Of a stretch of DNA of 64,000 nucleotides, positions 415 through 38,507 are shown in pieces. Source of the stretch: Erythrobasidium yunnanense. Taxonomy: Eukaryota > Basidiomycota > Cystobasidiomycetes > Erythrobasidiales > Erythrobasidiaceae. A program made the position numbers and the translations under genes. The notes beneath the pieces were generated by a model that made no database searches, was not told where the DNA came from, and saw nothing but the letters and a program-made list of their open reading frames with translations. Location of the stretch: NCBI GenBank assembly GCA_001600175.1, contig BCJC01000001.1:4449652-4513651 (forward strand). The letters run 5' to 3'. The first letter of the stretch is position 1. Each line of letters opens with the position of its first letter.

Positions 415-3400
415 CTATACAAACGAAATCAGCGGGCGATGTTCGAACCAGCTCGCACATCCCTTGGCACCCGGTGCATCGTGGGCATGATACGTGAAGC
501 ATTTTCCGTTGAACTTCCATACGTCTGCCTTGAGACTGTGAAGGTCGAAAAGACACCATGCTCCACACTGCTCTTTCGCCGACTTGAAGAGCCATTCGTT
601 GTGCGAGGTGTCCTTGTCGCACATGGTCTCATTCAGTACAGCGGCTTTCCATCTCTCGCCTGCAGGGCTGTCTAGGAAGCAGCGGTCCTGAAGCTCTCCG
701 GCTTTACCAGTAAGCCTGACGCGACTGAGCTGCTTCTGTGTATGGGCTAATTGTGCAAAGATGGGATCTTCTGTAGCCATAGTCTGTAGACCAGAGTAAG
801 CGGCAGGGTTCTAGAGATTGAATAAGGAATCCCAAAATTAGCCCAGTTCCAAGGCTATGCCTGCTCGGCTGCGATTGAAGGGCACTTACGGGTACATCCA
901 GCTTGTGCTCATCGTATGGGCGTGTCCTCTTCGCTATGTCAAACTCGGAGGGGAAGGCCTGCAGCGTCATGTCTTGATCGAATGTCTGGACCACTTGTTC
1001 TCGGGCAGCGACTCCTAACTTTTGGCGGACTGCTTTGTTGCATGCGAGCTCCATCACAGCGTCGGCATACCCGTGAACTTCTTCCGTGAGATTGCCTGTG
1101 AGTGTAATGAGGTGCCCTGCTACAGCTCTCCCTTCGCCTAGATCACCCAGCTCTTCAGGCAGTCCGCCAGCAAACGAAGTTATAATGGGAACATTCATGG
1201 CCATAGCTTCCGCTACAGCAAGCGAGATGCCCTCCGTTGCCGAAGGCAAGAGGAAAGCATCGCTTCCACGCAGGACAGTCTCTGGCTTATCCACTGTTCC
1301 TAGCAGATGAACGTGCTTTTCCATCCCCGTGATCCTTATGCGCTCCTTGAGGGCATCTTTTAGTCCGCCATCTCCCATCATGTACATGACTGCTTCTGAA
1401 CTGTCGCAAGAGCTTCCTTTGGCGGTTTCCTCCGCCAGGCGACGGTTGACCTCGGCTAGGATATCCGGTACCAGCAGAGGCCGCTTTTGCGTATCGAGAC
1501 GCGCACTTGAAACTAAAGCCAGAGTCGTCTTTGGGAGCTTGAACACTGTATCCTGGATGTTTTGACGTTCTTCTTCGAGTGTCGGGTCGAAGCGTGAAAT
1601 GTTGATACCGAGCTTTGCGACACCGACTCGTTGCTCGGGATAGCCACGAGCGATCAACCAGTCTCGAAGATAGTTTGAGCATGTCAAGGTCCTAGAAAGA
1701 TAGCGTTGATTGATAAGGGCAAAGGATGGGAAGCCGTCCGTCTTCCAGCCATCGAACGATTCATTGTGCAACTAGAAGGTGTATATGACCGTGCAGGACA
1801 AGCCAGTCAGTGTCGATGACTTGGCAATGATCGCCGCTGAAACTCACGTAATCGATCCAAGCTACTCCCGGAGTTTGTTCGACCATCGAGGGCAGAATCT
1901 CGTAGATGAGTTGACAATTGCTCATCAAGACAGACTCGATCCCTCTCGAATCTATCAGGTATTTGATGTAACGAGGGAAGTCGCTCATGCGTAGGAAGGC
2001 AGGTAGTGTATGGATGTCGTTTGTGTACTGAGAGACTTGCGAGAATAGTGCCATGCCTTCAGGATATCTGAAGCGCGTAAGGACCATGGTGACACGGTAG
2101 CCGCGCTCAGCAAAGTGTCGAAGGATTTCGAGCATGCCCATCTCCGAGCCGCCGACTAGAAGCCATCCCTGGATGATCATGATGCTTTTGCCTATCGGGT
2201 GAGGAAGCGGGTTATGGAAGGGTGGCTCCCACGTCATGGGCTCTAGAGCAGCATGAGGTGGAACATGGATGTCTGGCCAAGACCCTGCGTCAAGGGTGGG
2301 GAATTTACTTGGATTTCCATCCGAAACGGTATCGTTGTCGGGGACGCTTGGAGGCCTGCTCACTTCGTGTCAGTATCGTTGGTCGGCCTCAACGGGCTAA
2401 TAAACTCACCAGCTTCCGACTTCGCCTATAGTCTAACGAACCGAAGGTGTCAGCTCCCGATTGACATGAGCAGTGAGCACAGCACTTACCCCTCCCCAAT
2501 GACCTTGTGACGCCAAGCAGAGCCACATCTCCCAAAGTACGACCCGGCCCTCTCGGTCACCGAACGTACATCCAGTAGCTTCTAGACTTGATAAGCGAAA
2601 GGCTGTCGCGTCAGGGATCGTGTTGTCCTTTTCAAAGACAGAATCAGCCTCAGCTACCTGCCTGTTGATGCCAGCTCTGGCGTAGCAGCGGTGAACTCAC
2701 CAGCAGATTTGCCGCACCGAAATGAACACCCCCCATCAGGCTGTCTCCTCCCTCGTAATGACCAACAATATCCCACATCGGTACTGACGCGAAAGCCCAG
2801 GCAGACTTCTCGAGTATCGTATGCTCGAGCATCGCAGGTGGATTGATGAACGCGCCATATGGAGCTCCAGATTTGAGCATCAATTTGCGTAATGTCTTTG
2901 AATATCCTCCGGATTTCCGTGAAGGCTTGCGATGTATTGTCACTCTTGAATCGAGCTTCGCCAGCTCTTCGAGGATAGCAAAGCTTTCCGGCTCCGAAGT
3001 CGCTTCGTCCACCAGAATGAACCAGCGCCATAGCTTCAATGACGACTGAGCCAGTGTTTGATAGCTCAAGTCGATAAGGTCGCGCGACGGGTTGAGAACG
3101 ATACTGCCGAGAGCAAAGACTGGAGTCTGCTGGTCCGACAGAGCTACGGGTGCCGAGGAAAACTGGTTGCGAGGACGCCAGAGAGATAAGGGATTCTGAT
3201 GAGGATGGAGGATGTGGTCTTGCACGCGAGGATGTGGGGAGAGCTGGAGTTGCTCTGTCGCGTAATAATGCTCTGGCTTGCGCAATAAGCGAGCACCAGT
3301 AAGAACCTTTTGCTTAATCGCTCTTCCTGCAGTGTTGCGAACTTCTGAGGAAATCAGCCCGCTTGAACACCACAACGGGACCAAGAGACCGAGGAAGAAG

Positions 3401-3500
3401 AGCATCCCAACGCGGCTCTGGCTGAACCGCAAGTTGCGGGTAGTGGAAGCTGCGAGATGCTTCATATTGAGAATGAGCTTGCGAGAAGAATCGTCGACAG
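190..3500 (-). repeat. left arm of ~3.3 kb inverted gene duplication
   Basis: The reverse complement of this stretch matches about 28270-31605 on the plus strand. It covers the whole coding region of a glycosyltransferase gene plus about 200 bases of 3' flank, and only about 30-40 bases before the start codon. Exons are nearly identical. Introns 1 and 5 are identical by eye, introns 2 and 3 differ at a few bases, and intron 4 is clearly diverged. No target-site duplication or transposon terminal repeat was seen at either end. The arms face each other across about 24.8 kb. Confidence 0.9.
415..3465 (-). CDS. GT2-like/GT4 fusion glycosyltransferase, copy A
   Basis: Exons read on the minus strand are 3465-2701, 2657-2490, 2432-2410, 2355-1848, 1771-890 and 810-415. 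They sum to 914 codons with no break. The start is the ATG at 3465, because homology with copy B begins just before it. Residues 19-38 form a signal anchor, so a Golgi type II enzyme is expected. Residues ~110-325 resemble a GT2 domain but lack the DxD acids: the position holding DDDD in the third paralogue reads INPP here. Residues ~377-780 are a GT4 (glycosyl transferases group 1) domain, with the EX7E pair at about E668 and E676 (TEGISLAVAEAM) and a nucleotide-site motif SSARLDTQKRP. The last ~130 residues are a six-cysteine tail of unknown function. Exon 3 is only 23 nt. The donor and acceptor sugars cannot be read from the sequence. Confidence 0.88.
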
Positions 3501-4259: not shown

Positions 4260-5886
4260 TTAGAATCTCACATCCCTCGGGTCGAAGATGAGACGCTTGA
4301 TGGAAGCCATTGACGATCTCGAGCTCACAGACGGCCAGACGTTTCCACGCTTCAAGTACGCGTGCAGAGCGATAGTGTGTTGACCGTACCAGCTGTTCCG
4401 AATACCTTCATCGAGAACGATATATTGCGCCGGGGTCTCTGCAATTTCTTCTGCGTGCTTGTGAGATGCAAAGACATTCTGCGCATCCTGTACCATAGAT
4501 GGAACAAATTCGCGATAGCACATCGCCGGACCACCCTGCAGGAGTCGCCAGTTGTCCGCTGCGGTGACGCCTTGAAGGAGGGCACATATCAGTATTATGA
4601 TTGGTAAGCATAGTCTCGTGAACCCACGTTCCATCTTTTCCAGGCAATTTTCGAGAGAGCGCTGCTCGTAATCTGCACATATACTCGTTAGTATGGTGAA
4701 ACGGCTTCAGGCGAAGTTGCCCATAGCTACTCACGAGCCAGCATTAAAGGCTCAGTAACGATCGGATCCATGCCGTTCTCTTGGTGTATGGCATGAGCAT
4801 TGCGGATGCTATATGCGGCGCCCGTTAGGCCGTCAAACTCATCCTTTTTAGCAATGCAGTCGTGGGCGCCATTGAATGCAGCAGCCAGTCCAGATTTGGA
4901 ACCCCGAAGCGCGACCTGCGTAAGGCTCAGCATCGAGTCGTGTAGCGAATCTTGGAGATGCTCACTTTGCCCTCAGCTTGGGTGTTCCGCAAGACCTTCC
5001 GATAGGTTATACTATCGAGAACGGACGTTGATGCATCGGCTCTTACTACGCCCACATTGACATATTCTCCATTCCTTGTTAACGCTAAGCAGCGGCCACT
5101 CCTCACTGCAGGCGACAGCAGGTAATCGTGGAGCGGGTATGTCACCACTGATTCCCCAATTTGTGTAGGCTTTGTATCGGATCGGTAGAGTTGACTGAGG
5201 CGTAGGAATTCATCCGAATCAAAGTGAAAGAGCCATTCCGTGGAGTTGCCATAGGTTTCTTGACAATGGTCCATTAGCCGTCCTTGGAAAGCCCGATGAT
5301 TCGGGGCACTTCCGTCTATACAATACAATAGAGCTTCTCAGTCGCAATGTCAATCGATACAAGGTGGGTTGAACCCTACCTTTCCAGGCCATGGTATGCA
5401 GAGTCACGATACCTCGCTCGATATACGGACTCAAGACTTTGAAGGTATTTGTGAACTCGCCATAATCGTACAGGTAGAAATGCTGGACACCCCTTTGATG
5501 TTTGTCAATGCATTAGCCCTCTCTGTCAACCTTTTTGCACTCGGCTTGCCAAGTGTTACGTACATCAAGCGGTGATAGATAATCCACTCGTCCAGGTACT
5601 CGGCCTCCCACGATGTAATGCCGCAGACAGACGCATTGAAGAGTGGTCTATCGTGAGATTGGCTGTAGCTGCGAGAGTGCGCATCCAAGTTGGAATTGAT
5701 AATTTGGTAGGCCAACGTCGTGGATGATGGTGGTGGTGATCTTGCAGCCAGCTCTTCCCCAGAACACTCCAGCGACGAAGAAGAGGAGCTAAAGAAGATA
5801 GCGAACGAGCATAGGCTCAACACTGCGAGGGTCAACCATCTTGACATGTTCCAGAAGGGCTGTTCGCTGTCTTGCGAGTTGTGCAT
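4260..5886 (-). CDS. GT92-type glycosyltransferase, paralogue A
   Basis: A type II membrane protein with its anchor at residues ~17-32. It then shows the GT92 (DUF23) signature: YLDEWIIYHRLMGVQHFYLYD, a DxD-bearing WLFHFDSDEFL and a C-terminal block ending RNSWYGQHTI. Known GT92 enzymes are Golgi galactosyltransferases (for example plant GALS beta-1,4-galactan synthases and nematode GALT-1), so a galactosyl transfer is plausible but not shown. Several short introns are needed. Intron 1 starts at 5563 and ends before 5492, joining HRLM to GVQHF. A late intron near 4574-4630 joins MER to VTAADNW, and the paralogue at 35156-36790 has an intron at the same place. It lies next to copy A in the same orientation and back-to-back with the alpha-galactosidase gene. 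The reading frame appears intact. Confidence 0.82.
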
Positions 5887-6285: not shown

Positions 6286-8485
6286 ATGGCCAGCTTGGTA
6301 TATCATCGACTAGATTCGGAGAAAGACTCGCTTCAAGCCCAAGGTCTTCTGTCAGATAGCAATAATGCTCCTGACGACAGAAGCTACGAGGATCTTCCCA
6401 ATACCGACAGAGAAGACTGGATTCCTGCTCCCACGAAATACGAACATGCTCGGTCATGGCGTAGACAAATTGTTATCAGCGCCGCTGTCCTGTTGGCGAC
6501 TGCCCTCGCTATCTCTGCCTTTCTGAAATATGGAGACATGATGCACCGGAACGAGGTTCTAGCTGCCAAACCCATGCTCGGCTGGAGTAGCTGGAACCGG
6601 TCAGTCTGGCCTGCTTGCAAGGCACTGACCTGACGAGGGCACACTGCTGAGTATGCGAGGTGTACCCCAGGTTCAAATGTGAAGTCAACGAATCCATCAT
6701 TATCGAGTCGGCAAAAGCTATCAAAGCTCAGGGATTGCTCGATCTAGGGTAAAGTTCCGTTTCTATCGCCTTCGTTGTCCTTGAAACTTACTGTCGTATC
6801 TCTACAAGATATGAATATATCGCTGTGCGTCAATCCTGCTTGCAGAGCGTTAGCTTAATACAGTGAGATCTGACGTATATAATTTTGGACAGATTGACGA
6901 TGTACTTTACGAATATATACACATGGCCCTCTACCGATGCTGAAAACCAATTGCGTGATTTCCCAGTGCTGGCAAGCCGATGAACGCGATCCCCAGACGC
7001 AGGCACCTCTGGAACATCCTGTGAAGTTTCCCAGCGGCTTCGCTAGCTTGACATCAACCTTGCACGACATGGGTTTCAAGGCGGGTATCTATAGTTCTGC
7101 AGGCACGCAAACGTGCGGCCGTCGATTCGGCAGTCTTGGCTTTGAGGATATCGATGCACAGGCAGTGAGTCTCCATCATACAAGTTACGTCAAGGGCCAC
7201 GATTGATCGCGTCTTCTCTTGCTCTCAGTATGCTGCGTGGGGTTTCGATCTTCTAAAGTTGGATAATTGGTGAGAAGCAATCCTTGATGCTGGCCAATAA
7301 TGCTATAGCTAGTGCTCTGCAGCTTCAACAACGACCTCGAGGGAACTCCGCAATTATCTCGAGATAGATATGCAGTCATGGCACAAGCATTGCGCAAGAC
7401 CGGAAGACCCATCTGGTACTATCTTTGCAATTGGGTCAGTCGCGGCCTTCCTTTTAGTACGCTAACCGCTTCTAATGCTCGTCAAACCATCTCAGGGACA
7501 TGATTCTGTTCAAGACGTGAGTGATGAGCTGCGAAAACTGACATCTAGCTGATGGCGAGTGCTGTTGTATCCAGTGGGCCAGCGAATTCGCCCAAAGTTA
7601 CCGCGTCACAGGTGCGTGAAATAGTGATCTTCGTGGACAAGGCTTCTGACACGTCAAGCAGGCGACGTAGGAATGAATTACGGTTGGTGGAGCACTTCTC
7701 TCGTTATTGTCGGTCGCTGACTTTCCTGCATCTTTTCAGACAGTTTCGATGAGACGGGATACAACCTTGCTATCATGCTTATAGCAGACCTAACATCATC
7801 AGTTATACACAAGTCTAAGCAAGGGAGCTGGGCCGACATGGATAGCTTGGAGGTAATGCCGAAGTACTTCAGAACAGCCGAGAGATAGACTAAATGTAGC
7901 ATCCGACTTCAGGTAGGAAACGATGGTTTGTCTACGAGCGAGTACCGGACACAGATGAGCCTGTGGGCTCTTGCCAAGAGTCCCTTGATGCTTGGTCATG
8001 ACCCAACAAACAGGTACGCTGCGACCATGAACATGCTAGCCGTGATTGACAGACCGTCGCATACAGTACCAAGGATACACTCGATATCATATCGAATCAG
8101 GCTGTGCTTGCTGTCAACCAGGATGAACTGGGAAAGCCTGGGTATCGTGTCTGGAAAAGGGAGGTTTCATCAGGCGGGGCTCTTCAGCTGTGGAAAGGCG
8201 AGCTGAGCGGAGAGTGCGTTTCCGATTGACCATCTTGGTGTTGTGACTTCGCTCATGTCATTCCACAGTGCCTACGTCTTGCTACTCATCAACTCGACGC
8301 CCTCCCTGCAAACGGTGTATATTGACCTATCAGACGAGTTTTTCAGCAAGAATGAGGTCGAGGGCCTCAAGACCCTGACAGCAAGTGATCTTTGGCACGA
8401 TGGAGAGTCTGTTCAGATCGCCAATGGCCAGCTTAAATTGGATGTACAAAGCCATGATGTGACGATGCTGAGATTACAAGCCTGA
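6286..8485 (+). CDS. membrane-anchored GH27 alpha-galactosidase
   Basis: Predicted to hydrolyse terminal alpha-galactosyl residues. The family signature is clear across about nine exons: GWSSWNR, joined over an intron to FKCEVNES; YEYI; GFKAGIYSSAGTQTCGRR; the nucleophile segment WGFDLLKLDNC; WYYLCNWG; the acid/base segment SWADMDSLEVGNDGLS; and SLWALAKSPLMLGHD. It ends in a C-terminal beta-sandwich. In SWADMDSLEVG the second Asp matches the catalytic Asp of the family's usual WNDPDML. Fungal GH27 enzymes usually have a cleaved signal peptide. This one has a ~60-residue acidic cytosolic tail and then a membrane anchor at residues 61-80, so it probably stays in the Golgi or at the membrane. 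The ATG at 6286 gives the tail plus anchor. All splice joins needed to keep the frame have GT and AG ends. Confidence 0.88.
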
Positions 8486-8969: not shown

Positions 8970-9875
8970 ATGTCTTCTGCCATCTTGATCCTGCGAGACG
9001 GTCGGGATCTATCCTACGCTTTTTACGGTGCTGTCGAGCGTGCTCAGCACGACGTCTTCTACTTTCACGGAGCCAATGGATGTCGTTTGAATGCACGTCA
9101 TCTCCATCAGGCAGCAGTAGACCTCAGTATACGCATAATCAGCGTGGACAGAGCGGGCATTGGCCAGTCTTGTCCTCATCCGGCAGGCTTTCCTCCATCA
9201 GATCTCCTTCGAGCATGGACTTCGGACATCATCGAGCTTGCGGATCATCTTCAGCTTGGACGATTCTCCATATTGGGCATGTCGACAGGCGGGTCATTTG
9301 CTCTAGCTTGCGCGAGGTTTCTGCCATTATCCAGGCTGCATAATATAGGAGCTGTAGCACCCGTTGCGCCTATACATGAAATTGGCTCGAAAGGTCTTGC
9401 GTTGGGTCTGAAGATCCAGAATTACCTCGTCTCGTATCTTCCTGAATGGGTCGTGGAGAAAGCCCTCGAAGCCCGTCTCGGACTGGCTGCGCGAGACCCG
9501 GACAAGTATGTCTTGATGAGGATACTTGTAGGAGGTGAGGAACAGCTCGCAAAGCTTTCGGAAGAGGAGAGATTGGAGCTGGAACAAAGACGAGAATCGG
9601 TTGCCGAGGCATATCGAACGGGCAGCGGAGGAATCGCCAAAGAGTTCAAGGCTCTCGTCGGTGATTGGGGTTTTGCATTGGGAGAAATCCTAGACGGAGG
9701 ACGCGTGCATCTTTGGGCTGGCGAAGACGACACGATTATGCCGCCAGGACTGGTCAAGAGGATGGCCGATAAGATTCCAGGATCGCGCTATCAAGCGTAT
9801 GAAGGAGAGACACATGACTCTCTCATCTCCGAAACTGGCAGAGACATGCTGAGGCAGCTTGTGCGGACTTCTTGA
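8970..9875 (+). CDS. alpha/beta hydrolase, paralogue A
   Basis: A single-exon protein of 301 residues if the ATG at 8970 is used. This start puts LRDGRDLSYAFYG at the N-terminus, matching the start of the paralogue at 37569-38507. The fold is shown by the oxyanion segment FHGANG, the nucleophile elbow GMSTGG (Ser105), an acid in WAGEDD (about residue 253) and the histidine in GETHDSL (about 282). No signal peptide or anchor is seen, so it is probably cytosolic. The substrate is unknown, and hydrolases of this type act on esters, lactones or peroxides. Its presence beside the glycosyltransferases, repeated at the other end of the cluster, suggests a role in the same pathway. Confidence 0.8.
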   Translation: MSSAILILRDGRDLSYAFYGAVERAQHDVFYFHGANGCRLNARHLHQAAVDLSIRIISVDRAGIGQSCPHPAGFPPSDLLRAWTSDIIELADHLQLGRFSILGMSTGGSFALACARFLPLSRLHNIGAVAPVAPIHEIGSKGLALGLKIQNYLVSYLPEWVVEKALEARLGLAARDPDKYVLMRILVGGEEQLAKLSEEERLELEQRRESVAEAYRTGSGGIAKEFKALVGDWGFALGEILDGGRVHLWAGEDDTIMPPGLVKRMADKIPGSRYQAYEGETHDSLISETGRDMLRQLVRTS

Positions 9876-17491: not shown

Positions 17492-17764
17492 CTGGAAGGT
17501 CGCGTCAAACGATGACGCGTAGAGCGGTAGACAAGGACATTGGCTTCTCTCAGCCGGTGGTGACCTTCCAGCGGCTCTCTTCCGACTAGTCCCGATCGAC
17601 CTCTGACCGCATCGACTTCTTGCGACTTCCAGTGTCGCAGAGACTATGACGCAACACCACAAGTATAAAGAGCAATCCCAGCCTTGCTGTTGCTTCTTTC
17701 TTTCCTCCCTCCCAAAATCTCACCTTCCCTCTTCACACTCCACTCCGAAAAACAAAGCAACAAA
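17492..17764 (+). promoter_or_regulatory. TATA-containing promoter of small secreted protein
   Basis: TATAAA lies at 17664-17669, about 100 bases before the ATG at 17765. It is followed by a strongly pyrimidine-rich leader (17685-17745) and an A-rich context just before the start (CAAAATG). This layout is typical of highly expressed fungal genes. Confidence 0.6.
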
Positions 17765-24338: not shown

Positions 24339-25724
24339 TCACTCAGAAGAGCTGGAAGCAGATCTCAAATACTGCTTTGCCAGCTGATGCGCTTCTTCTG
24401 TTGAAGTAGCAACCTTGCCCAATTGACATTCGGATGTCCAGGAATGATAGTAATTGGACAGCTTGCCGATCCGATTATCAACGATGATGTGAGGGATACC
24501 TAGTAAGATGCTCAGGATATGTCCTGTAGAACTTGCCATGTCAGCCTACTGACAGCATACCACGAATGACCCGGCCGATTATCTCACCGTGAAGCCGATC
24601 GAGGATCACGAAGCGTCCTTGTCGCAGGTATTCTGCGCCTTTGACAAATCGTGCATACGCCAAACTGTCTATGTTGTGGGCCTTCTTGCCCAAGATTTTG
24701 TATTGCGAGTCGAACCAGTCGTCTTGCATACTTGTCAGGTTGGTACGCTCAGCCTCAAAGTCTGGCCAGCGCTCTCCTTCAATATCAGTCCGATGGAATA
24801 TGAGACTGTGAAAGACTGTCAGTTCCGGCCTTCGTTGCTGTCGTTCTGTCAAGGTATCTCACAGATCACGCTGAGGCTGAAACTTCGCATATATGTCTGG
24901 CCTCGATCCTATCATGAATGCAGCATCCGGAACACTGTATTAATGAAGTATCAGTGTTTCGTTCTGTTTTGGTCTTGCTCGACTTGTAGCACACGTACTA
25001 GCGGATATCAACTCCCAGTTTCCCGAAGCGACTACGAGCAAAAGTTTCGCTCGGCCTGTCACGAATGAACAGATGGAGGTTGGTATGGTCTGCAAGCATG
25101 GCTGCGACCAGCTCCACGTTCTTCTCCGAATCGAAATGGATAGATTGGGGGAAGAAGCGGATAGGAACATCGGGAAATGCTTCGACGACGCTAAATCGAG
25201 GTCGAAGTTCCCACATGTACAGATCGCCGAAATTACCACCCCCGTGTAGCAGAATCGCAATGTCTGGATAGAGCGACACGACATCTCGCAGATCTTCCTC
25301 GCGATAGGTCTGCCAGGATGCTTGATACACTGTCTCCTTTCCTAGAGCTGCCAGCAGAATCTTCTCCCCAACCCAGATTGCGGCATCACCCTTATTCTCG
25401 TGGTCGGGGTATCCAAGAAGAGCAACATGCCTATGGCCTTCTAGCGAGACTTCGTAGGCTGCTAGGAGAGCTTCTTGCTGGCGTTGTATGACTTTTTGAC
25501 ATCCATTGCTAGATCTGCGACTTTCGTGTCTCAGTGCGGTCCCGAGTCGTAGACGCGCCGTGCAAAGCCAGCAGGCGGTCGTTTCGCAGCAGAGGATGGG
25601 CCACTCACAAGACTAATTCATTCTTGAGCGAATGTGATGTGGTCGCCGGTCGTAACGCGTGCGTTGCAAGAAAAGCCAGTCCAAGAAGCACAGCCAGGAA
25701 AAGCACCGTCACTTGTTTCGGCAT
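24339..25724 (-). CDS. polysaccharide pyruvyl transferase-family protein
   Basis: Predicted to move pyruvate from phosphoenolpyruvate onto a sugar of a glycan as a ketal. The start MPKQVTVLFLAVLLGLAFLA at 25724 is a signal anchor, so the enzyme faces the Golgi lumen. Family marks follow in order: HVALLGYPDHENKGDAAIW, ILLHGGGNFGDLY, FPQSIHF, FIRDRPSE, DAAFMIG, and RLHGHILSILLGIPHIIVDN. The last is formed by splicing out an intron (GTGAGA..CTACAG) that interrupts RLHG. Fission yeast Pvg1 is a characterised fungal member that pyruvylates galactose on N-glycans, and bacterial relatives decorate exopolysaccharides. This gene is divergent from the GT8 gene and lies within the cluster. The frame seems intact with about five introns. 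Confidence 0.85.
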
Positions 25725-26201: not shown

Positions 26202-27378
26202 ATGTCAAGGCGTAGTCTCGCTCGCCCTGTCTTCGCGGCTGCTGTAACCCTCTTCCTCGTATGGTTTCTATGGCTGAAAGAACCACTCACATCGAAAGAG
26301 GCCATCGTTACGGTCGTAAGCTCTGGTATCTACCTACCAGGTTGATATAATGTCTTGCTTCCCTTAGATCGAACGGAAGGCTTACGTACTGTATGCAGGC
26401 GCGATTGTATTGGCATGGACCATACGCAAGCACACGCGAGCGCTAGATCTGATAGCGCTGGTACCCCAAGGCACTATGACGCCCACACAGCTTGAGATCC
26501 TGTCGAAAATTGGCTGGAAGACGCAAGAAGTGGAAACGATACCATTGCCTAGCTTGCAGCCAGGGGATCCGAGGTTCGAAGATATGCTCGACAAGCTGTA
26601 TGCCTTCGTTCGTCGTTTTCACAAACAGTATTCTGGAAGCTGCAGCTCTGTTAAATCCGTCTTTGCAGGGCATGGTCCAGTATAAGACTGTCGGTCTTAT
26701 AGATGCGGATGCCTACGTAACCGCGAGCTTAGATGAGGCCTTTGATCTTTTTAGAAGATCGAGTGTGCCGCTCGCGGCTTGCTTAGCGCGTAAGTAAAAC
26801 GTACGTTTTTCCCAGCCATTCACTGAGAGTTCGGTCTTTCGGCAGCGATCGCAGGCAGCCATAGTCACTCACATGACCATTTCTCTGGTCACTTCAATGG
26901 TGGCTTCATGCTTATCAAGCCCGACCTTCCAACCCATCAAGCTTTATTGACCCTGTCGTCTAACGCGTCCTACTATGACGTTTCTCTGGCGGAACAGGTC
27001 AATTCGCCTCATTGCAAGACTCTTGATTGTTCTGACATAGCATGGGTAATGCAGAATCTTCTGAATAGGTATTTTGAGGGACAATGGCTTGGGCTTCCGT
27101 CTCGCTACAATCTGCTCTATCGCTTCCGTGGCCGCCCGGACTACTGGGACAAGATACGGCCATCAGCGGCTATCGTTCACTTTGCTGGTCTGGAGAAACC
27201 GTGGCATGGCTGCAGACAAGATCGCTCGCTCTGCATTGCTATTCCTCCCGAGCTTCAAGCGTGGCAGAAGGAATTCACTGAGGCGTTCAAAGCTACCGAC
27301 CTTGCAAAAAGCGATTTCTACGGGGAAGAGGAGCAGCTCCACTTTGCAATCGACGAGCTCATTGGCCACGCCGTGTAG
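26202..27378 (+). CDS. GT8 glycogenin-like glycosyltransferase
   Basis: Exons 26202-26315, 26368-26607, 26669-26789 and 26846-27378 give 335 residues with the frame kept. The anchor is at residues ~9-25. GT8 marks are KLYAFGMVQYKTVGLIDAD, with the DxD in IDAD formed by joining exons 2 and 3; the acceptor-side block HFNGGFMLIKPDLPTH; and AIVHFAGLEKPW near the C-terminus, which holds the metal-binding histidine. GT8 enzymes use UDP-sugars with retention and include glycogenins, galactinol synthases and glucuronosyltransferases. A membrane-bound form points to polysaccharide or glycan synthesis rather than glycogen priming. The intron 2 donor (GTTCGT) is unusual and was chosen because it restores the KLYAF-GMVQY alignment. 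Confidence 0.82.
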
Positions 27379-28307
27379 AAGGAAGTGCATCGCCCATATA
27401 TGGGATGCAATTCTCGACACCGCAACTAATATCCGTACTATCGAAGGTCCCTCTGGCACATCCTGGTGTCGGAAGAGCACGCTATGTCGGCTGGATTCCC
27501 GCACCGATGCGTGACATGGCCAGCGGCTGACAGAGCCTAGTACAGACGTCGCAGGGAGTGAGCCTGGGTGTTCGCAACAGCTTCAGCGCGGACAAAGGGA
27601 CAAGAGATATTGCGTCCTTGTTTCGTTACGATATCTGCACCTGCCGTACCCGTGCTGCACTGAGGTAGAGAAGCTCACCACGAGTGCTGTGCTGGTGTAC
27701 TCTTATCGTCTAGAATGCCAATATGCGTGCTCCCCGGTCCGATTTGGCCAGCCGAAAGTCGTTTCAAAAGCCTGAGGTAGGAAGCTTGTCTGGCAAAAGG
27801 GCGAACAGGCTCTTCGTGTACGTGCATGAGCTGGCCGTCGTCTGTCGCTATGATGCGATGGAACGCGCCTTTGAATATCACCGGCTATACAAGTCGCGCT
27901 TGGAGGAACACGACAAAGGCTTTCTGATCGATATCGCTTGTACAGGAGACAACACGACAACCCTCAGTGTGAAGTTGCAGTAACTTATGTAGTAGCCACT
28001 CGTCCGAAAAGACGCGCGATCGCCTTCTGTACCTGCACGGCGAGGAATGTGTCGCTCCGCAGGGTTTTTTCAAGAAAAGGCTCGGATACTACCTGCTGCT
28101 GCTTGTTTGCCGTATTATTCTTTCCTACGACAGCACAACAACGCTCTTTACTATTCCACTGTTCATTACACACCACATCTCGACGTATCTTCCTTCATCT
28201 TATCCGGCGAAAGCTTTGCAGCTTTTACACGCCCAAAAGCCAGCGCAGGCTTTCTACAACGCGTTTTCCTGCTGCTTCTCCTTCTTTCTTGCGAGCTCAT
28301 CCTCAAC
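27379..28307. promoter_or_regulatory. spacer: promoter of copy B
   Basis: 929 bases between two plus-strand genes. It holds the 3' end of GT8 and the promoter of copy B. Open frames of 80-90 codons on both strands (27675-27983) match nothing. Only the last 30-40 bases resemble the region before copy A. Confidence 0.45.
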
Positions 28308-31300
28308 ATGAAGCATCTAGCAGCTTCCACTACGCGCAACTTGCGGTTCAGCCAAAGCCGGATTGGGATGCTCTTCTTCCTCGGTCTCTTGGTCCCGCTG
28401 TGGTGTTCAAGCGGCCTGATTTCCTCAGAAGTTCGCAACACTGCAGGAAGAGCAATTAAGCAAAAGGTTCTTACTGGTGCTCGCTTACTGCGCAAGCCAG
28501 AGCATTATTACGCGACAGAGCAACTCCAGCTCTCCCCACATCCTCGCGTGCAAGACCACATCCTTCATCCTCATCAGAATCCTGTATCCCTCTGGCGTCC
28601 TCGCAACCAGTTTTCCTCGGCACCCGTAGCTCTGTCGGACCAGCAGACTCCAGTCTTTGCTCTCGGCAGTATCGTTCTCAACCCGTCGCGCGACCTTATC
28701 AACTTGAGCTATCAAACACTGGCGCAGTCATCCCTGAAGCTTTGGCATTGGTTCGTTCTGGTGGATGAAGCGACTTCAGAGCCCGAGAGCTTTGCTATCC
28801 TCGAAGAGCTCGCCAAGCTCGATGCAAGAGTCAAAATACATCGCAAGCCTTCACGGAAATCCGCAGGATATTCAAAGACATTACGCAAATTGATGCTCAA
28901 GTCTGGAGCTCCCTATGGCGCATTTATCAATCCACCTGCGATGCTAGAGCATACGATACTCGAGAAGTCTGCCTGGGCTTTCGCATCAGTACCGATGTGG
29001 GATATTGTTGGTCATTACGAGGGAGGAGACATCCTGATGGGAGGTGTTCATTTCGGTGCGGCAAATCTGCTGGTGAGTTCACCGCTGCTACGCCAGAGCT
29101 GGCATCAACAGGCAGGTAGCTGAGGCTGATTCTGTCTTTGAAAAGGACAACACGATCCCTGACGCGACAGCCTTTCGCTTATCAAGTCTAGAAGCTACTG
29201 GATGTACTTTCGGTGACCGAGAGGGCCGGGTCGTACTTTGGGAGATGTGGCTCTGCTTGGCATCACACGGTCATTGGGGAGGGGTAAGTGCTGTGCTCAC
29301 TGCTCACGTCAATCGGGAGCTGACACCTTCGGTTTTGTAGACTATAGGCGAAGTCGGAAGCTGGTGAGTTTATCAGCCCTCTTGAGGCCGACCAACGATA
29401 CTGACCCGAAATGAGCAGGCCTCCAAGCGTCCCCGACAACGATACCGTTTCGGATGGAAATCCAAGTAAATTCCCCACTCTTGACGCAGGGTCTTGGCCA
29501 GACATCCATGTTCCACCTCATGCTGCTCTAGAGCCGATGACGTGGGAGCCACCCTTCCATAATCCGCTTCCTCACCCGATAGGCAAAAGCATCATGATCA
29601 TCCAAGGCTGGCTTCTGGTCGGCGGCTCGGAGATGGGCATGCTCGAAATCCTTCGGCACTTTGCTGAGCGCGGCTACCGTGTCACCATGGTCCTTACGCG
29701 CTTCAGATATCCTGAAGGCATGGCATTGTTCTCGCAAGTCTCCCAATACACCAACGACATCCATACGCTACCTGCTTTCCTACGCATGAGCGACTTCCCT
29801 CGTTACATCAAATACCTGATAGATTCGAGAGGGATCGAGTCTGTCTTGATGAGCAACTGTCAGCTTATCTACGAGATTCTGCCCTCGATGGTTGAACAAA
29901 CACCAGGAGTAGCTTGGATCGATTACGTGAGTTCCCGCGGCAGCTTTCCAAAGTTGCCAAGACTGACTGGAACCCTGTTCTGCACGGTCAAATACACCCT
30001 CTAGTTACATAATGAATCGTTCGATGGCTGGAAGACCGACGGCTTCCCTTCTTTCGCCCTTATCAATCAACGCTATCTTTCCCGGACCTTAACGTGCTCA
30101 AACTATCTTCGAGACTGGTTGATCGCTCGTGGCTATCCCGAGCAACGAGTCGGTGTCGCCAAGCTCGGTATCAATATTTCCCGCTTCGACCCTACACTTG
30201 AAGAAGAACGTCAAAACATCCAAGATACGGTCTTCAAGCTGCCCAAGACGACTCTGGCTCTGGTATCAAGTGCGCGTCTCGATACGCAAAAGCGGCCTCT
30301 GCTGGTACCGGATATCCTAGCCGAAGTCAACCGCCGCCTGGCAGAAGAGACCGCCAAAGGAAGCTCCTGCGACAGTTCAGAAGCAGTCATGTACATGATG
30401 GGAGATGGCGGACTAAAAGATGCCCTCAAGGAGCGCATAAGAATCACGGGGATGGAAAAGCACGTTCATCTGCTAGGGACAGTGGATAAGCCAGAGACTG
30501 TCCTGCGTGGAAGCGATGCTTTCCTCTTGCCTTCGGCAACGGAGGGCATCTCGCTTGCTGTAGCGGAAGCCATGGCTATGAACGTTCCCATTATAACTTC
30601 GTTTGCTGGCGGACTGCCTGAAGAGCTGGGCGATCTAGGCGAAGGGACAGCTGTAGCAGGGCGCCTCATTACACTCACAGGCAATCTCACGGAAGAAGTT
30701 CACGGGTATGCCGACGCTGTGATGGAGCTCGCATGCAACAAAGCAGTTCGCCAGACGTTAGGAGTCGCTGCCCGAGAACAAGTGGTCCAGACATTCGATC
30801 AAGACATGACGCTGCAGGCCTTCCCCTCCGAGTTTGAGATAGCCAAGAGGACACGCCCATACGATGAGCACAAGCTGGATGTACCCGTAAGTGCCCTTCA
30901 ATCGCAGCCGAGCAGGCATAGCCTTGGAACTGGGCTAATTTTGGGATTCCTTATTCAATCTCTAGAACCCTGCCGCTTACTCTGGTCTACAGACTATGGC
31001 GACAGAAGATCCCATCTTTGCACAATTAGCCCATACACAGAAGCAGCTCAGTCGCGTCAAGCTTACTGGTAAAGCTGGAGAGCTTCAGGACCGCTGTTTC
31101 CTAGACAGCCCTGCAGGCGAGAGATGGAAAGCCGCTGTACTGAATGAGACGATGTGCGACAAGGACACCTCGCACAACGAATGGCTCTTCAAGTCGGCGA
31201 AAGAGCAATGTGGAGCGTGGTGTCTCTTCGATCTGCACAGTCTCAAGGCAGACGTGTGGAAGTTCAACGGGAAATGCTTCACGTATCATGCCCACGATGC

Positions 31301-31605
31301 ACCGGGTGCTAGGGGATGTGCGAGCTGGTTCGAACATCGCCCGCTGATTTCATTTGTATAGCATAGGTTAAAAACAGCAGCAGTTATGTCAGGTGCAGTA
31401 TAGAGATTAATCGTCATAAGGGCCATACGTCGTTATTGTTGTTTGTAGCAATAGCTGTACATGCGCATCGCATCTTCACATATCATCGTCAAGGTCAGCA
31501 AGCCGCTACATAATTAGCATTACTTTCCTACCTGATAGGCTGGACCAGAAGCATGAATTGAAATACCCTGATAACGCTCTGCATGCTACATACGTCGCCT
31601 GAAGA
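28270..31605 (+). repeat. right arm of ~3.3 kb inverted gene duplication
   Basis: Inverted partner of 190-3500. Similarity starts just before the ATG at 28308, runs through the whole gene, and fades over about 240 bases of 3' flank, where substitutions and small gaps accumulate. No terminal repeats or target-site duplication were seen. Confidence 0.9.
28308..31361 (+). CDS. GT2-like/GT4 fusion glycosyltransferase, copy B
   Basis: Exons 28308-29072, 29116-29283, 29341-29363, 29419-29926, 30005-30886 and 30966-31361 have the same lengths as those of copy A (913 residues, intact). Domain order is the same: anchor 19-38, GT2-like region without DxD, GT4 domain with EX7E at about E668 and E676, and a six-cysteine tail. 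By eye fewer than about 25 residues differ from copy A (for example I19 for V, N/D in RDLINLSY, T/R in LGEGTAVAG). Most base changes in exon 5 near its start are silent, which points to purifying selection on both copies. The promoter is unlike that of copy A, so the two copies may be expressed under different conditions. Confidence 0.88.
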
Positions 31606-31729: not shown

Positions 31730-34560
31730 ATGCTTCAAGGATCGCGAAAGGTTTCGCCGAAGATTCATCTTTCGCTGATCAGAGTCTTGATTTTGTCTTG
31801 CATCCCAGTCGGCAGTGTACATACAAGACGCGTATCCAAACCAATCCAAGCTGAACAGCAGAATCATGCGAATCAGCCAGCTGTGTCAGGCTTTCAAGCT
31901 TCGAGCGCAAGATATAGGCTGGTCCGGCCTTCCGTCATTTTCAGCAAGCGAATACTCGTAGGCGCTGTCCTTGTCTCAGCTCTACTTTTGCTGTCACTGC
32001 GCAATCAGCAGACGCTCGGTAAGCTTTCCCATCGCTGAGTGACAATAGATCAGGTGAACTGAACGTTCCTGCTTCAGATGGCTTTAAGAGCCCGCTGACT
32101 AGCAGGAGTGCATCATGCTCATTCCAAGCCTCTGATGATCCTCTGCCAGTATACACGCACCATCAGCAAATCGTTTACAGCAATCATCCAGTATCGGCGC
32201 ATCGACCAAAACATCAATTCCATGACTGCTCGCATCCAATACCCGTAGAAAATCCCATGCTTACTGTCATTACGGCCACTAAAGATCCTGGACGCCACTT
32301 CGAAGAGACCGCTGCGAGCGTGCTTTCGCAAAGTCTGCGGGATCTTCGCTGGCTGATTATAGACGATCATTCAGAGAGCTCGGAATCTTTGGCTAGGATG
32401 GAGACAGTAGCGGAGCGCGATCCCCGAGTACTTGTCCTGCGCAGCAATGCAACGGGTGGCCTAGTCTCAGCTCGGAATCAAGGCTTGCAAGCAGTTGCTG
32501 AAAGGGCCGATCTTAGGGCTCCCTTCGTCGCCTTACTTGATGACGATGATATACTCGAGCTCACAGCTTTGGAGAAGGCTGTCTGGATGCTCCTTTCGAA
32601 CAAGAATTGGTCGATAGCTGGATATCACTTCGTCAAGTTTGGGTATCAAAATACGACCGAAACGCGCGGTTTACATTCGGGGCGCAGTAACTATTACAGG
32701 GTGAGCGTTTTCGGCGGTGTTGAAACCTTCCGCATCATTACATTACATTGGCCGGTCTGATGAGAAAGTGACGATACACAGGAGAACTACATTGCAAATT
32801 CTGCCGTCATACGATATAAAGATATTGGCTCCTGCAGATACGATACCAGTTTCGCTACAGGCGGGGAAGATTGGGACTTCTGGCTTTGCCTGGCTGAGAA
32901 GGGCCATTGGGGCGGAACATTGCCAGAGCTGGCATATTGGTGAGTCTGTCGTGTTAAGCCGTGCTGTCATGATAAGTATTCTTACTTAATACTCCGTAGG
33001 TATCGAGTGAATGACCCAAACTTTCGGAAAAGTCGGTGGGGAAACACCTTCTCCAATCACCAAGGTCATGCAGCACTCGTAGAGCACATAAAGAACAAGC
33101 ATGACACTCTGCACGATCATCTAGCCAACTTTGCGGCAGGGCACGTCCTGCCCTCACAGCCTCTCGAGCCTGTAAACTGGCACGACCGCTTCGAGAACAA
33201 GATGGTCATGACTGGCTCGCGTGACAGTATTCTCTTCGTCTTACCTTGGATGGCAATGGGCGGTGCGGACATAGGAGCTTTGCGCATGCTGGAAGTTTTG
33301 ACGAACCAAGGCTTTCGCGTGACCGTGATTTGCACTCTGTACGATCCACCCACCAGTATAATACTGCAGCCGCTTTTCATGCAGTGGACACATGACATCC
33401 ATATCCTGCCTAGCTTCCTCCGGGGTTCAGACATGGCGCCTTACATCGCTTATCTAGCTCGTTCGCGATCGATCACTTCTATCCTGTTCAGCAATTCGAT
33501 GCTTTTATACGACCTTCTCCCGGTACTACGAGAAAAGCTGCCAACAACAATCGCGTTTGTCGATTACCTTCACAACGAGAGCGAAGACTGGAAATCAGGC
33601 GGCTACCCTCGATATTCCGTGCTCTACCAAAGATACATCGATAGGACGATTGCGTCCTCTGAATATCTGAAGGATTGGATGGTTCAGCGGGGTCACCAAG
33701 AGGATAGAATAGGTGTTGTCAAGCTTGGCGTCGATTTGGAAGAGATGAGAAGTGTCGGCAATCGCTCGAGCGTCCAGGCGGAGCTGCGAAAGGAGCTATA
33801 CAATATCACCGCTCCCACGACCATCGTGCTCACAGTCGCGCGCCTCGACAACCAAAAACGGCCCCTTCTTATACCCGAAATAATTTCAGAGCTCGTCTCA
33901 AGCCATGGCTTCCAAACGTGCGGCAAGCCAAGCAGCTCCTCGCATATGACGCTATTCATGGTCGTAGTTGGCACAGGCTCACTTAAAAGCCAGCTGGAAA
34001 AGGAGATCGCCAGGCTAGACCTTCAGGACTGCGTATTCCTAGCAGGGATGCAAGGCGACACTAAGCCTTACTATCTGTCGGCCGATGTCTTCCTTCTGCC
34101 GTCCTCGCACGAGGGCATATCGGTAGCGGTAAGTGAAGCGATGGCTGCAGGCTTGCCTGTAATAGCTACAAAAGCAGGAGCTCTACCGGAGCAGCTCGGA
34201 ACAGAGAGTGACCCTTTGCAAGCGGGTATACTGGTGACAGCCCATGATGGAGAGGAAAGTCTGCCGGTCGCTGGAGATTACGCTAAAGCTCTAGCTGACC
34301 TCCTGAAGAATACGAACGAAATGCAACGACTAGCAAGCAATGGCGTCGAGAGAACTCGCGAAATGGACTGGCGGAATTCGCTGCAGGCTATAGTCCCGGA
34401 GCTGGACCTCGCTCTCCTCGCACGTAAGCGACCAAGATCCCGCAAAGAGCTGGAGCTTCTGCCTCACCCTGCAGCGGAACTTGCGGCTCAGACACAGTTG
34501 CAAGAGTTTAATAGGTTCTTCGACCTCAAGAAGACTCAGCAAAGGCTGGGAGACTGGTAA
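31730..34560 (+). CDS. GT2/GT4 fusion glycosyltransferase, diverged copy C
   Basis: Exons 31730-32018, 32078-32700, 32782-32939 and 33000-34560 give 876 residues. A membrane anchor lies at about 74-90 (RILVGAVLVSALLLLSL). The GT2 domain is complete in its key parts: MLTVITATKDPG, the DxD block FVALLDDDDILELTALEKA (acids at about 251-254), and GGEDWDFWLCLAEKGHWGG. The GT4 domain follows, with TVARLDNQKRPLLIP and the EX7E pair at about E728 and E736 (HEGISVAVSEAM). The intron that splits DY-LHNES in copies A and B is absent here. The C-terminal six-cysteine tail of A and B is replaced by a short basic and Gln-rich end. Two catalytic modules on one chain suggest two successive sugar additions. 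Confidence 0.87.
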
Positions 34561-35155: not shown

Positions 35156-36790
35156 TCAAAAGTCCATCTTTACAATAGCTTTGAGGGCTGCCGGTTCATT
35201 GACAAGCGAAGGACGGCGTCCTCCCTGCAAGCCCGCATGAAATGCGATTGCATTCTGACCGTACCAACTGTTCCTCATGCTCTCATCCATTACTAATACC
35301 TTATGAGGTCTCTGCATGATATCGGCTAGATGTTCGCTCCCCTCGAAGACCTTCTGCTCTAGCTGGCTAGGTGTCGGGACGAAATTTCGATAACACATCG
35401 CTTCACCACCGTTTGTGACGCGCCAATTTGTAGTCGGATTGTCGAGATCTGAAGTAAGGGTCTCTTCAGCTAAGCAGCAGGGCTACTGGCTAGGGATTGC
35501 ACGCACGCTTGAGTCTGTCTAGACAATCCTGCAGGGAACGCTGGCCGAAATCTGCAAGTTTTGCACTCTGTCAGCTGGAGGAAGACGAGTGCGAGGAAAG
35601 TAGCGTTGCAGTCGACTTACGAGCTACCATGAGAGGCTCGCGAAGGAATGTATCAAGCTCCTGCTTTTCGAATTCTTTTGTTTCGACACCTCCTTGGACG
35701 TTGCGCAAGCTCTGAGAGGGACTAGCGACTCCAGCAAACGACCGATCAAAGGCTGGAACACAGTTGTGTGCAGTCGTGATCTTTCCCGCTAGTCCTTGAG
35801 GAGTGCCTCGGGCTGCTACCTGCATTGAATCTTCAGTTGCGAATATCGCGATAGCGTCATTGTGGAAATGCCGACCTTTCCAGCTCCGCGAGCCATGTTA
35901 GCAGCTGTCCGATGGTACACGGAGTCGAGTACAGACCGTGACGGAGCATCGACTAATCCAACATTCATGAATTGTCCATTCCGAGTCAGGAATAGGCAGC
36001 GACTTGCACTCAAGTCGGGCTGCATTAAATAGTCGTGCAGCGGGAACTGGTACTGTCCAGCGTCGAGCCGTGCGGGTTTGCCAGCCCACGGATATACTTG
36101 GCTGAACTGTAAAAACTCGTCCACATCGAAGTGGAAGAGCCATTGTGTTTTATTGCCATAGTTCGCCTGGCAGTGCGTGAGTAGCTTGCCATGGAACCAT
36201 TTGTGCTCTTTCTGCCCCTCCGCTGGCAGACGGGGGAGCACACTCGATCAGCTATGACTACAAAGTATCATTCAAAGTACACACCTTCGTCAGGCGGACC
36301 GTGAAGGGTAACCATGCCGCGCTCGATATAGGGCAGAAGGAGCTTTGTTGTGCTAGGCGATTTTTTGTGATCGTAAAGATAGAAGTGCTGCACTCCTCTA
36401 TATTCGATGCCATAAAGAAGCATGTCAGAGCTTGTCACGATTCCGAGTCCTTGCGCGTAGAAGTACTTACAGCAATCGATGATATGTGAGCCATTCATCG
36501 AGGTAGTCGTCCTCCCACGCTGCTATAGCACAGACAGTCAAATTGTACGACTGCCATCCATTCCCGTCCGTTGTCGAGCGAGGAGTTACATCCAATATCT
36601 CGCGCGCCAGGCTGTCAGGCTTTCCTCGAGAGTGAAGCAGAAGAAGGCTAGCTGGCGGTTGCCATTGCCAGTGGACGAGGGAGCTGGCCAACACAGCGAG
36701 GATGCATATGAAGCCCAGTTTCCATCTATGCGATGAGAAGAAGAATGAACGCTGAAATGCTGGACCAAGTGGTTCGTAGTCGCCAGGCAT
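35156..36790 (-). CDS. GT92-type glycosyltransferase, paralogue B
   Basis: Paralogue of the gene at 4260-5886, clearly more diverged from it than copies A and B are from each other. The anchor is at residues ~25-39. GT92 marks are YLDEWLTYHRLL, GVQHFYLYDHKKS, YIERGMVTLHGPPDE, WLFHFDVDEFLQFSQVY with the DxD, FPLHDYL, and MCYRNFVPTP...MRNSWYGQNAI. Introns occur at matching places, including the late one joining LKP to EETLTSD near 35470-35505. The family transfers galactose or related sugars in the Golgi, and the exact activity is unknown. It is convergent with copy C, and its anchor and motifs look functional. Confidence 0.82.
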
Positions 36791-37568
36791 AGTGAAACGA
36801 GGCTGCTTTCGCCAACGGAAAGCTGATGTTAGTCAGATATGTTGTAGATGCGCGATGAGAGTACAGTAGCAGGTCTCTGGCATTATCAGCAGGAAGTCAT
36901 TTCATCAAATAATCGCCTGCGGAGCGCTGAGAAAACAGACGCGCAGTAACGATTGCTGGGGAAAGACATGGCAGGGATTGTCAAAACAGGTCGCATTCCT
37001 CACCTCGCACGACGCGTAAATACCGTATTTATATGGCAGCAGTAAATATCGCCAAGGTCTGACGGGACGCGTTTTCTGCATGAGCCTTGAGCTATTGATG
37101 AAAGGCAAGCCTGTAATAATAAACGTACGAAGCATATCGAGTCGCTTCGAGAGTGAAAGCAGGGATGCAGATTACAATGAGGCCTGACTTGCTATGCATG
37201 TTAACGTTTCAGCCTACAAAGTATTGAAGTAGGCCTGACTTTGGCCAGAGCAACACTTTGGAAAGAAACCTGCTTGGCTTGACACGTTCTGTACAATACA
37301 ACATACATTCCTTTGACGTCCTCCTTCTGCCACAGGCTGATGCTTGCGCCATCGGGAGCTTCCCGTATCGTGGGGTCGCGATGAGTGACAGAGATGTTTC
37401 TCTTCAGCTTGGATGCTTGGTCTCCTCCTGCGTGCGTCTCCGGCAGTAGCGAGTATCGGCATTCGTTTTCCGAATTGAGATCTTTCAAGCAACTCGTCGA
37501 GAATGGCAGACTGAGCTCGCTTATCAGGCTGATAAGGCGCAGAACCTGAGAAGTCGCTGGTACGACAA
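36791..37568. promoter_or_regulatory. spacer: promoter of GT92 B
   Basis: 778 bases between two minus-strand genes. It should hold the GT92 B promoter and the hydrolase B terminator region. Open frames of up to ~125 codons (37214-37591) match nothing. Confidence 0.45.
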
Positions 37569-38507
37569 CTATTCTGCGCGGGTGAGATCACTCAGGACAG
37601 CTTGCGCCCGATTGAGGAGCAGTGTGTAATGGGTTTCTCCCTCAAACACCTCCAATATACTCCCGACTAGAGCTTGCGAAGCGTTTTTGGCCATTTCCAG
37701 AGGTATATGCTTATCCAATTCTCCATACCACAGCCTGATACCGGGATAACGTATATGCTCCAGCTTGAAGCCCCAGCTGGACGCCATGAGCTTGCACTCT
37801 TGCGCTATACCAGCAGATCCTTGTTTGAAAGCTTCTCTTTCATTCTCGACCAGCATATCGATCTGTTCATCGTTTTCGGCCAGCGCACGTTCGCTCTCGG
37901 GAGAATCTTCATCGAAGTTGGCTAGGAAGAGATCCCTCATCACATGCTCGCTCGCAGTCCTCGACACAGTGCCGATGAGCTTATCGATGATCTTTTCGAT
38001 GACAGACTCGGGCAGCCAGACCGTGAAGAGATTGAGGATATATCGCTGAAGACCGGCTCCTCCGACTCCTAGTAGCCAAGGAGCTACTAGTCCTACGCCT
38101 TTGACCCTGTCTCTAGCTAATAATTGTGCGCATGCTAGAGCATACGCTGCTCCTGCTGATGCCGCGAGCAGGTAGACTGCGTCGATACTGAGGTGATCAA
38201 GCAAGGCCGCAACGTCGCTGGGATAGTCGAGTATCGTTCGTTTTGGAAGTGGAGAAGATAGACCTATGGCGGGTCTGTCGAGCGATATGACCTGCAATCG
38301 CAATGAGGAAGCAGCGGAGTACAGCTGAGCAGCTTCAAGGCGGGAGCCAGGCATGCCGTGGAAGTAGACGATGTAGTGTGTTGGCTGTAGGCATCCGTAG
38401 GTTGCGTAACTTAGGTATCTTCCATCTTGCAGGGTAAAGACCTGCTCGACCCCATCGGCGTACGACAGTTGACGCGCCTTCGAAGGGCTCCTTAGGCTTT
38501 GATCCAT
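37569..38507 (-). CDS. alpha/beta hydrolase, paralogue B
   Basis: Single exon, 312 residues, paralogous to hydrolase A. The visible catalytic parts are HGMPGSR, the nucleophile elbow LLAASAGAAYAL (Ser117), an acid in YGELDKHIP and the histidine in FEGETHYTLL. The elbow has Ala where paralogue A has Gly (AASAGA against GMSTGG), a change seen in some lipase and lactonase relatives. No signal peptide is seen. The substrate is unknown. It marks the right edge of the duplicated cluster genes and is followed by the unrelated Rieske gene. Confidence 0.8.
   Translation of the reverse strand: MDQSLRSPSKARQLSYADGVEQVFTLQDGRYLSYATYGCLQPTHYIVYFHGMPGSRLEAAQLYSAASSLRLQVISLDRPAIGLSSPLPKRTILDYPSDVAALLDHLSIDAVYLLAASAGAAYALACAQLLARDRVKGVGLVAPWLLGVGGAGLQRYILNLFTVWLPESVIEKIIDKLIGTVSRTASEHVMRDLFLANFDEDSPESERALAENDEQIDMLVENEREAFKQGSAGIAQECKLMASSWGFKLEHIRYPGIRLWYGELDKHIPLEMAKNASQALVGSILEVFEGETHYTLLLNRAQAVLSDLTRAE

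Follow-up and report, generated by a model that had tools for sequence, protein, structure and literature searches.

Gene content of the locus

The genome of the basidiomycete Erythrobasidium yunnanense was analysed over a stretch of 64,000 nucleotides (contig BCJC01000001.1, positions 4,449,652 to 4,513,651 of the forward strand; hereafter the window), which has a GC content of about 51.5% by base counts and, in the manner of a fungal nuclear genome, carries intron-rich genes. Positions 415 to 38507 of the window contain a group of genes for predicted glycan-active enzymes, including a pyruvyltransferase of the type of Pvg1 from Schizosaccharomyces pombe. Eleven genes of this cluster were modelled, coding for three GT2/GT4-type glycosyltransferase fusions, two GT92 proteins, a GT8 protein, the pyruvyltransferase, a GH27 protein, an SGNH-type protein and two alpha/beta hydrolases. 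They are listed here with the two arms of an inverted duplication and the evidence for each feature:

415-3465, minus strand: fusion 1, 913 aa, 5 introns; anchor, degenerate GT2-like region, GT4 domain and Cys-containing tail (Pfam for GT4 only, alignment)
4260-5886, minus strand: GT92a, 440 aa with intron 4571-4627 removed (Pfam, gene model)
6286-8485, plus strand: GH27 alpha-galactosidase-type protein, 474 aa, 13 introns, type II anchor at residues 60-82 (Pfam, PDB match)
8970-9875, plus strand: alpha/beta hydrolase 1, 301 aa, without N-terminal anchor (Pfam)
19096-20803, plus strand: SGNH/GDSL-type candidate, 437 aa, anchor at residues 27-54, weak family assignment (Pfam below cut-off, motifs)
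24339-25724, minus strand: Pvg1-type pyruvyltransferase, 366 aa (Pfam, PDB match, residue alignment)
26202-27378, plus strand: GT8 protein, 335 aa, divergent from the pyruvyltransferase (Pfam, PDB match)
28308-31361, plus strand: fusion 2, 913 aa, near-identical inverted copy of fusion 1 (repeat search, alignment)
31730-34560, plus strand: fusion 3, 876 aa, GT2 domain with catalytic motifs and GT4 domain, start codon uncertain (Pfam, PDB match)
35156-36790, minus strand: GT92b, 439 aa (Pfam, PDB match)
37569-38507, minus strand: alpha/beta hydrolase 2, 312 aa (Pfam, PDB match)
196-3487, minus strand: inverted duplication, arm 1 (sequence comparison)
28286-31584, plus strand: inverted duplication, arm 2 (sequence comparison)

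Genes were predicted with a splice-aware gene finder trained on the window itself, which gave 21 models that were then refined region by region; after refinement the first 38.5 kb comprises 15 genes. Introns in the gene-finder models are 43 to 145 nt long, and since the program was restricted to introns of 40 to 260 nt beginning with GT or, rarely, GC, the splice ends are partly built in. No tRNAs or RNA families at the Rfam gathering score were found in the window.

The Pfam scan took in ten of the eleven cluster proteins, fusion 2 being left out because its protein is 98.2% identical to that of fusion 1. Matches above the curated cut-off were obtained for nine of the ten, the exception being the SGNH-type protein, and comprised GT4 (fusions 1 and 3), GT2 (fusion 3 only), GT92 (two proteins), GT8, PS_pyruv_trans, Melibiase_2 with Melibiase_C, and alpha/beta hydrolase (two proteins). 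An earlier prediction, made from the sequence alone, had proposed this set of genes as a cluster for a pyruvylated, galactose-containing secreted polysaccharide; its inventory is borne out by the gene models, whose outer ends at 415 and 38507 are also the limits it gave. It had further stated that all proteins except the hydrolases have an N-terminal membrane anchor, and a hydrophobic segment (mean hydropathy >1.6) is indeed present in all nine of the others, GT92b being borderline at 1.63, and in neither of the two alpha/beta hydrolases. The nine anchored proteins look like single-anchor enzymes of the Golgi, which is their probable location. The window begins 415 bases before the end of fusion 1, so the cluster may extend further to the left.

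The pyruvyltransferase and galactose-related enzymes

The best-supported part of the set is the pyruvyltransferase, whose assignment as a true relative of Pvg1 is well founded. It contains the PS_pyruv_trans domain (PF04230, E 8.2e-21), and in a PDB search S. pombe Pvg1 (5ax7) was its sole significant match and only solved relative (E 1.7e-58), two other entries being listed at E about 1. The similarity extends over nearly the full length, with 119 of 307 aligned residues identical (38.8%). The residues proposed to be catalytic in Pvg1, D106, R217 and R337 (excerpt of PMC4872226), correspond in the alignment to D80, R188 and R303, and the cysteines of the Pvg1 disulphide C68-C373 are kept as C42 and C338. 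By this similarity the enzyme is predicted to transfer pyruvate to beta-galactose. A scan of bacterial and archaeal contigs with this protein gave 14 pattern matches, none of them confirmed; such a single-protein query reaches close relatives only and does not speak against a distant bacterial origin.

As members of their family, the GT92 proteins are predicted to use uridine diphosphate (UDP)-galactose as donor and to form beta linkages. The Glyco_transf_92 domain was found in both GT92 proteins (E 3.3e-15 and 2.1e-16) with partial model coverage, GT92a being scanned with intron 4571-4627 still in, and both sequences contain an Asp-x-Asp motif, read as DSD and DVD. The two proteins are 40.5% identical. 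GT92b, the one compared with the PDB, weakly matches the galactan synthase 8d3t, which we take to be the plant GalS: the two have the GT92 core in common and their Asp-x-Asp motifs are aligned, although the similarity spans only 88 residues at E 0.00038.

The identity of the GH27 protein as an alpha-galactosidase is a well-grounded prediction. Its Melibiase domains were detected at E 7.3e-57, and its closest PDB match is the alpha-galactosidase 3a5v (341.8 bits), presumably a secreted fungal enzyme. Residues D217 and D277, at the sites of the two catalytic Asp, correspond to positions 130 and 185 of the 6f4c chain, as counted by eye. The protein is extended at its N terminus by a tail and has a single membrane segment (residues 60-82). 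The part of the original prediction that concerns pyruvylation and galactose is thus well grounded in the Pvg1 residues, in the two GT92 proteins, of which GT92b is weakly similar to a galactan synthase, and in a GH27 enzyme with both catalytic Asp.

The label SGNH/PC-esterase-like fared less well: the modelled protein has an anchor, but its best Pfam match, Lipase_GDSL_2 (E 0.044 to 0.046), lies below the cut-off, and neither a PC-esterase match in Pfam nor a credible match in the PDB (best E 0.34) was obtained. GCS and DNTH motifs were spotted by eye. Structures were predicted for two single-exon pieces, both poorly (mean pLDDT 44.2 and 41.4). A fold search with the low-confidence fragment model of the SGNH-type protein (mean pLDDT 44.2) placed the O-acetyltransferase 6se1 first (E 0.045) amid many unrelated folds and gave no match at E 0.001 or better, so it is taken as a hint only.

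The fusion proteins and their inverted duplication

Nothing else in the locus is as unexpected as the duplicated pseudo-GT2/GT4 enzyme. Three fusion genes are present, as had been predicted, but two of them, fusions 1 and 2, arose by duplication of a single gene. They occupy the two inverted arms, which are 94.8% identical over 3300 DNA columns and whose inner ends lie 24.8 kb apart. Since the homology between the arms stops 22 bases before the start codon of both fusion 1 and fusion 2, the two copies are likely under different promoters. Two of their introns are identical and another has 15 mismatches.

An Asp-rich metal site and an ED motif are the marks of an active GT2 enzyme. Both are present in fusion 3, whose GT2 domain was recognised by Pfam (PF00535, E 5.4e-12). 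In fusion 1, which is 32.7% identical to fusion 3, the Asp-rich site ALLDDDDILE reads AFINPPAMLE, with DDDD replaced by NPPA, and the ED of GGEDWDFW is altered, appearing as DR across a six-residue gap in the BLAST alignment or as VL without a gap. The splice model near the ED site could be off, whereas the NPPA stretch lies deep within one exon. The first Asp of the GT2 domain is kept, as IDD in fusion 3 and VDE in fusions 1 and 2. The GT2-like region of fusion 1 matches nothing in Pfam and nothing credibly in the PDB (best E 0.25). The GT2-like domain of fusions 1 and 2 is apparently catalytically dead. The E-x7-E motif of GT4 is intact in all three fusions, and the GT4 domain was found by Pfam in both of those scanned.

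The pairwise comparison of fusions 1 and 2 gave a synonymous divergence (dS) of 0.177, a nonsynonymous divergence (dN) of 0.0077 and a ratio of the two (omega) of 0.044. For the degenerate GT2 region, 8 nonsynonymous against 25 synonymous changes give an omega of 0.093 (Fisher p 2e-10), and constraint shows no clear drop relative to the GT4 domain (p 0.14). The low omega therefore indicates that both copies, including the degenerate GT2 domain, have been kept by strong purifying selection; degeneration and constraint of this domain are both observed. The longest identical run between fusions 1 and 2, of 165 columns, was reached in 39 of 2000 random placements; since the placements ignore codon constraint, gene conversion is not claimed.

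The last approximately 140 residues of fusions 1 and 2 (415-810, minus strand; 30966-31361, plus strand) contain several Cys and belong to no Pfam family, as scanned in fusion 1. Recombination between the 3.3-kb inverted arms could flip the approximately 25 kb between them, including genes for LIM, TPR, DUF6987 and bZIP proteins. A scan of viral contigs with fusion 3 produced 14 pattern matches, none confirmed, the reach of this single-protein query again being limited to close relatives.

A possible pathway and its alternatives

The product of the set could be a surface glycan with a negative charge and galactose caps. At a probability of roughly one half, the genes belong to a single Golgi pathway whose surface glycan carries pyruvate and a beta-galactose cap, similar to the cap known from S. 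pombe but made by other transferases and encoded in one locus. The logic of the pathway is carried over from S. pombe, in whose N-glycans alpha-galactose is capped by beta1,3-linked pyruvylated galactose (excerpts of PMC6801904 and PMC12892413). Fusion 3, with catalytic motifs in both GT2 and GT4, would transfer two different sugars onto the growing chain, while fusions 1 and 2 would transfer just the sugar of their GT4 domain, with the apparently dead GT2 domain in a structural or docking role. A sugar in alpha linkage, possibly galactose, would come from the GT8 protein and the beta-galactose cap from the GT92 proteins, and the Pvg1-type enzyme would form a 4,6-pyruvate ketal on this cap from phosphoenolpyruvate. 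Uncapped alpha-galactose would be trimmed by the anchored GH27 enzyme, and a role in acylation or deacylation is possible for the SGNH-type protein. It is reasonable, judging from the gene set, that all these enzymes act on one glycan; the Golgi location, substrates and donors, linkages, order of steps and single shared product are what we infer for the pathway. Its product could be secreted as a polysaccharide, be carried by glycoproteins or form a lipid headgroup, and no finding tells the first two of these apart.

The locus resembles the S. pombe Pvg pathway in its anchored Pvg1-type enzyme, in the same proposed catalytic residues and in the presence of galactose enzymes nearby. It differs in using GT92 in place of the GT31 enzyme Pvg3, in having Glu at the H168 site, in including GH27 and the GT2/GT4 fusions, and in forming a single locus, the S. 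pombe genes for pyruvylated galactose being reportedly dispersed in the genome.

Several observations weigh against the proposed pathway. Pvg3 of S. pombe is a GT31 enzyme (excerpt of PMC11150766), and no GT31 was found among the proteins and protein pieces scanned, although one could lie elsewhere in the genome. Acceptor-site residue H168 of Pvg1 is replaced by E139 (24999-25508, minus strand), so the acceptor may differ. In Pvg1, H168 was modelled to clash with the N-acetyl group of N-acetyllactosamine (LacNAc), and changing it raised the activity on LacNAc-pNP (excerpt of PMC4872226). This residue relates to acceptor choice and was not counted as family-defining; the Glu at this site suggests another acceptor, in which the neighbour of the terminal galactose is predicted to differ. 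The nearest PDB matches of the GT8 protein are glycogenins (best E 8.5e-07) and not a galactosyltransferase; it also matches the Skp1 alpha-galactosyltransferase 6mw5 at E 0.0032. The two alpha/beta hydrolases, 34.4% identical to each other, are without an anchor and without a clear role in a glycan pathway, and the entry nearest to hydrolase 2, 9wlv (E 8.7e-18), is named pimeloyl-ACP methyl ester carboxylesterase, which gives no glycan link. Counting three fusions and two hydrolases overstates the independent evidence, since two of the fusions go back to a single gene and nothing found ties the hydrolases to glycans. The cluster is also not contiguous, since four unrelated genes, for LIM, TPR, DUF6987 and bZIP proteins, lie inside it, and no promoter word of 6, 7 or 8 nucleotides sets the cluster apart from other genes: out of 200 label shuffles for each length, 119, 143 and 17, respectively, came up to the real value.

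The intervening genes and the lack of a common promoter word would also fit enzymes that serve several unrelated glycans (N-glycans, O-glycans, glycolipids) and have come together by local duplication and chance, and the paralogues (fusions 1-3, GT92a and GT92b, hydrolases 1 and 2) inflate the count. This explanation is possible, if doubtful, as six glycan families are left after the paralogues are merged, against none in the 25 kb to the right. Anchored glycan genes make up 9 of the 15 genes in 415-38507 and none of the nine models to the right, of which one may hold two genes (Fisher p 0.007, a descriptive value as the boundary was taken from the finding itself). Six families among 12 genes would be expected by chance at less than 1e-6, given background rates of 1 to 3% that were assumed, not measured. 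The order fusion, GT92, hydrolase recurs in both halves of the locus; because the relative orientations differ, an ancient block duplication is given little weight. In favour of one pathway, two pairs of genes are divergent, namely GT92a and GH27 (399 bp gap) and the pyruvyltransferase and GT8 (477 bp gap).

It is unlikely that fusion 3 acts as a two-domain synthase and polymerises repeating units into a polysaccharide that is secreted for the capsule or wall. In the PDB, the GT4 domain of fusion 3 weakly matches the capsule polymerase Cps3D (8qoy, E 1.7e-10) and its GT2 domain weakly matches heparosan synthase B (8vh7, E 0.00012), and fungal exopolysaccharide clusters likewise hold a hydrolase (excerpt of PMC11356417). 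The best PDB match of fusion 3, however, is not a polymer synthase but the inositol-phosphate glycosyltransferase 7qsg, so the former matches represent generic GT4/GT2 similarity. No polysaccharide polymerase or multi-span synthase, flippase or exporter, or UDP-sugar epimerase was present among the proteins and pieces scanned. With nine proteins that look like single-anchor Golgi enzymes, the secreted polysaccharide of the original prediction is a candidate product rather than a demonstrated one.

Known galactose-containing polymers of fungi offer a partial parallel. The ascomycete galactosaminogalactan (GAG) cluster likewise concerns one galactose-containing glycan and includes a hydrolase (excerpts of PMC11356417 and PMC4817252), but it is built from other families, and its epimerase, GAG synthase, deacetylase and GH135 are not among the proteins and pieces scanned here. 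The glucuronoxylomannogalactan (GXMGal) of the Cryptococcus capsule is similarly rich in galactose, with beta-galactose put on alpha-galactose; it is made with the GT31 enzyme Ggt2, and pyruvylation is not part of its description in the excerpt of PMC11150766. Extension of inositol-phosphoceramide (GIPC) or of some other lipid headgroup is a very improbable function of the pathway, for although galactose is added by the GT31 enzyme Ggt1 when Cryptococcus makes GIPC (excerpt of PMC11150766), GT31 is missing from the proteins and pieces scanned and the set is without a lipid-specific gene.

From left to right, the genes of the first 38.5 kb are fusion 1 (minus), GT92a (minus), GH27 (plus), hydrolase 1 (plus), LIM (minus), TPR (plus), DUF6987 (plus), SGNH-type (plus), bZIP (minus), pyruvyltransferase (minus), GT8 (plus), fusion 2 (plus), fusion 3 (plus), GT92b (minus) and hydrolase 2 (minus). 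The large TPR protein is presumably Ski3. The DUF6987 protein (17646-18606, Pfam E 1.1e-07), encoded between the TPR and SGNH-type genes, is small and has a hydrophobic tail. Scanned pieces of the nine models to the right correspond to a Rieske-type cytochrome reductase, SRP receptor alpha, Sec7-type, MFS, Nop-domain, SND2/TMEM208 and NOL10-like proteins, and two proteins without a match above cut-off. The MFS protein, of sugar-transporter type (53683-55971), lies 15 kb to the right of the cluster, and a second piece of the same model has no Pfam match. The protein predicted at 60006-61528 (minus strand) begins with a hydrophobic segment, contains Cys in its first part and ends in a long tail rich in Ala and Val; its C-terminal exon gave no Pfam match above cut-off.

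Overall, the observation of the cluster stands; a pyruvylated galactose product is a well-founded proposal where the key enzyme is concerned and a plausible one for the set as a whole. The component families are known, while their grouping here and the duplicated enzyme with an apparently dead domain look unusual; in the open-licence PMC literature no fungal cluster with this gene set was among the matches listed, which is not proof of its absence from print. Tentatively, the locus may represent a clustered version of the pathway in which GT92 takes the place of GT31, the product is edited within the Golgi by an anchored GH27 enzyme, and a catalytically inactive GT2 domain serves as a functional component of a GT4 enzyme that has been preserved in two copies, each with its own promoter. 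Ketal pyruvylation is scarcely described in eukaryotes (excerpt of PMC6801904), and a locus that joins a Pvg1-type enzyme with likely galactosyltransferases would provide a short list of genes for testing. E139 of the pyruvyltransferase gives a prediction on acceptor choice, and fusions 1 and 2 would illustrate how a transferase in nature can hold on to a catalytic domain that seems to be inactive.

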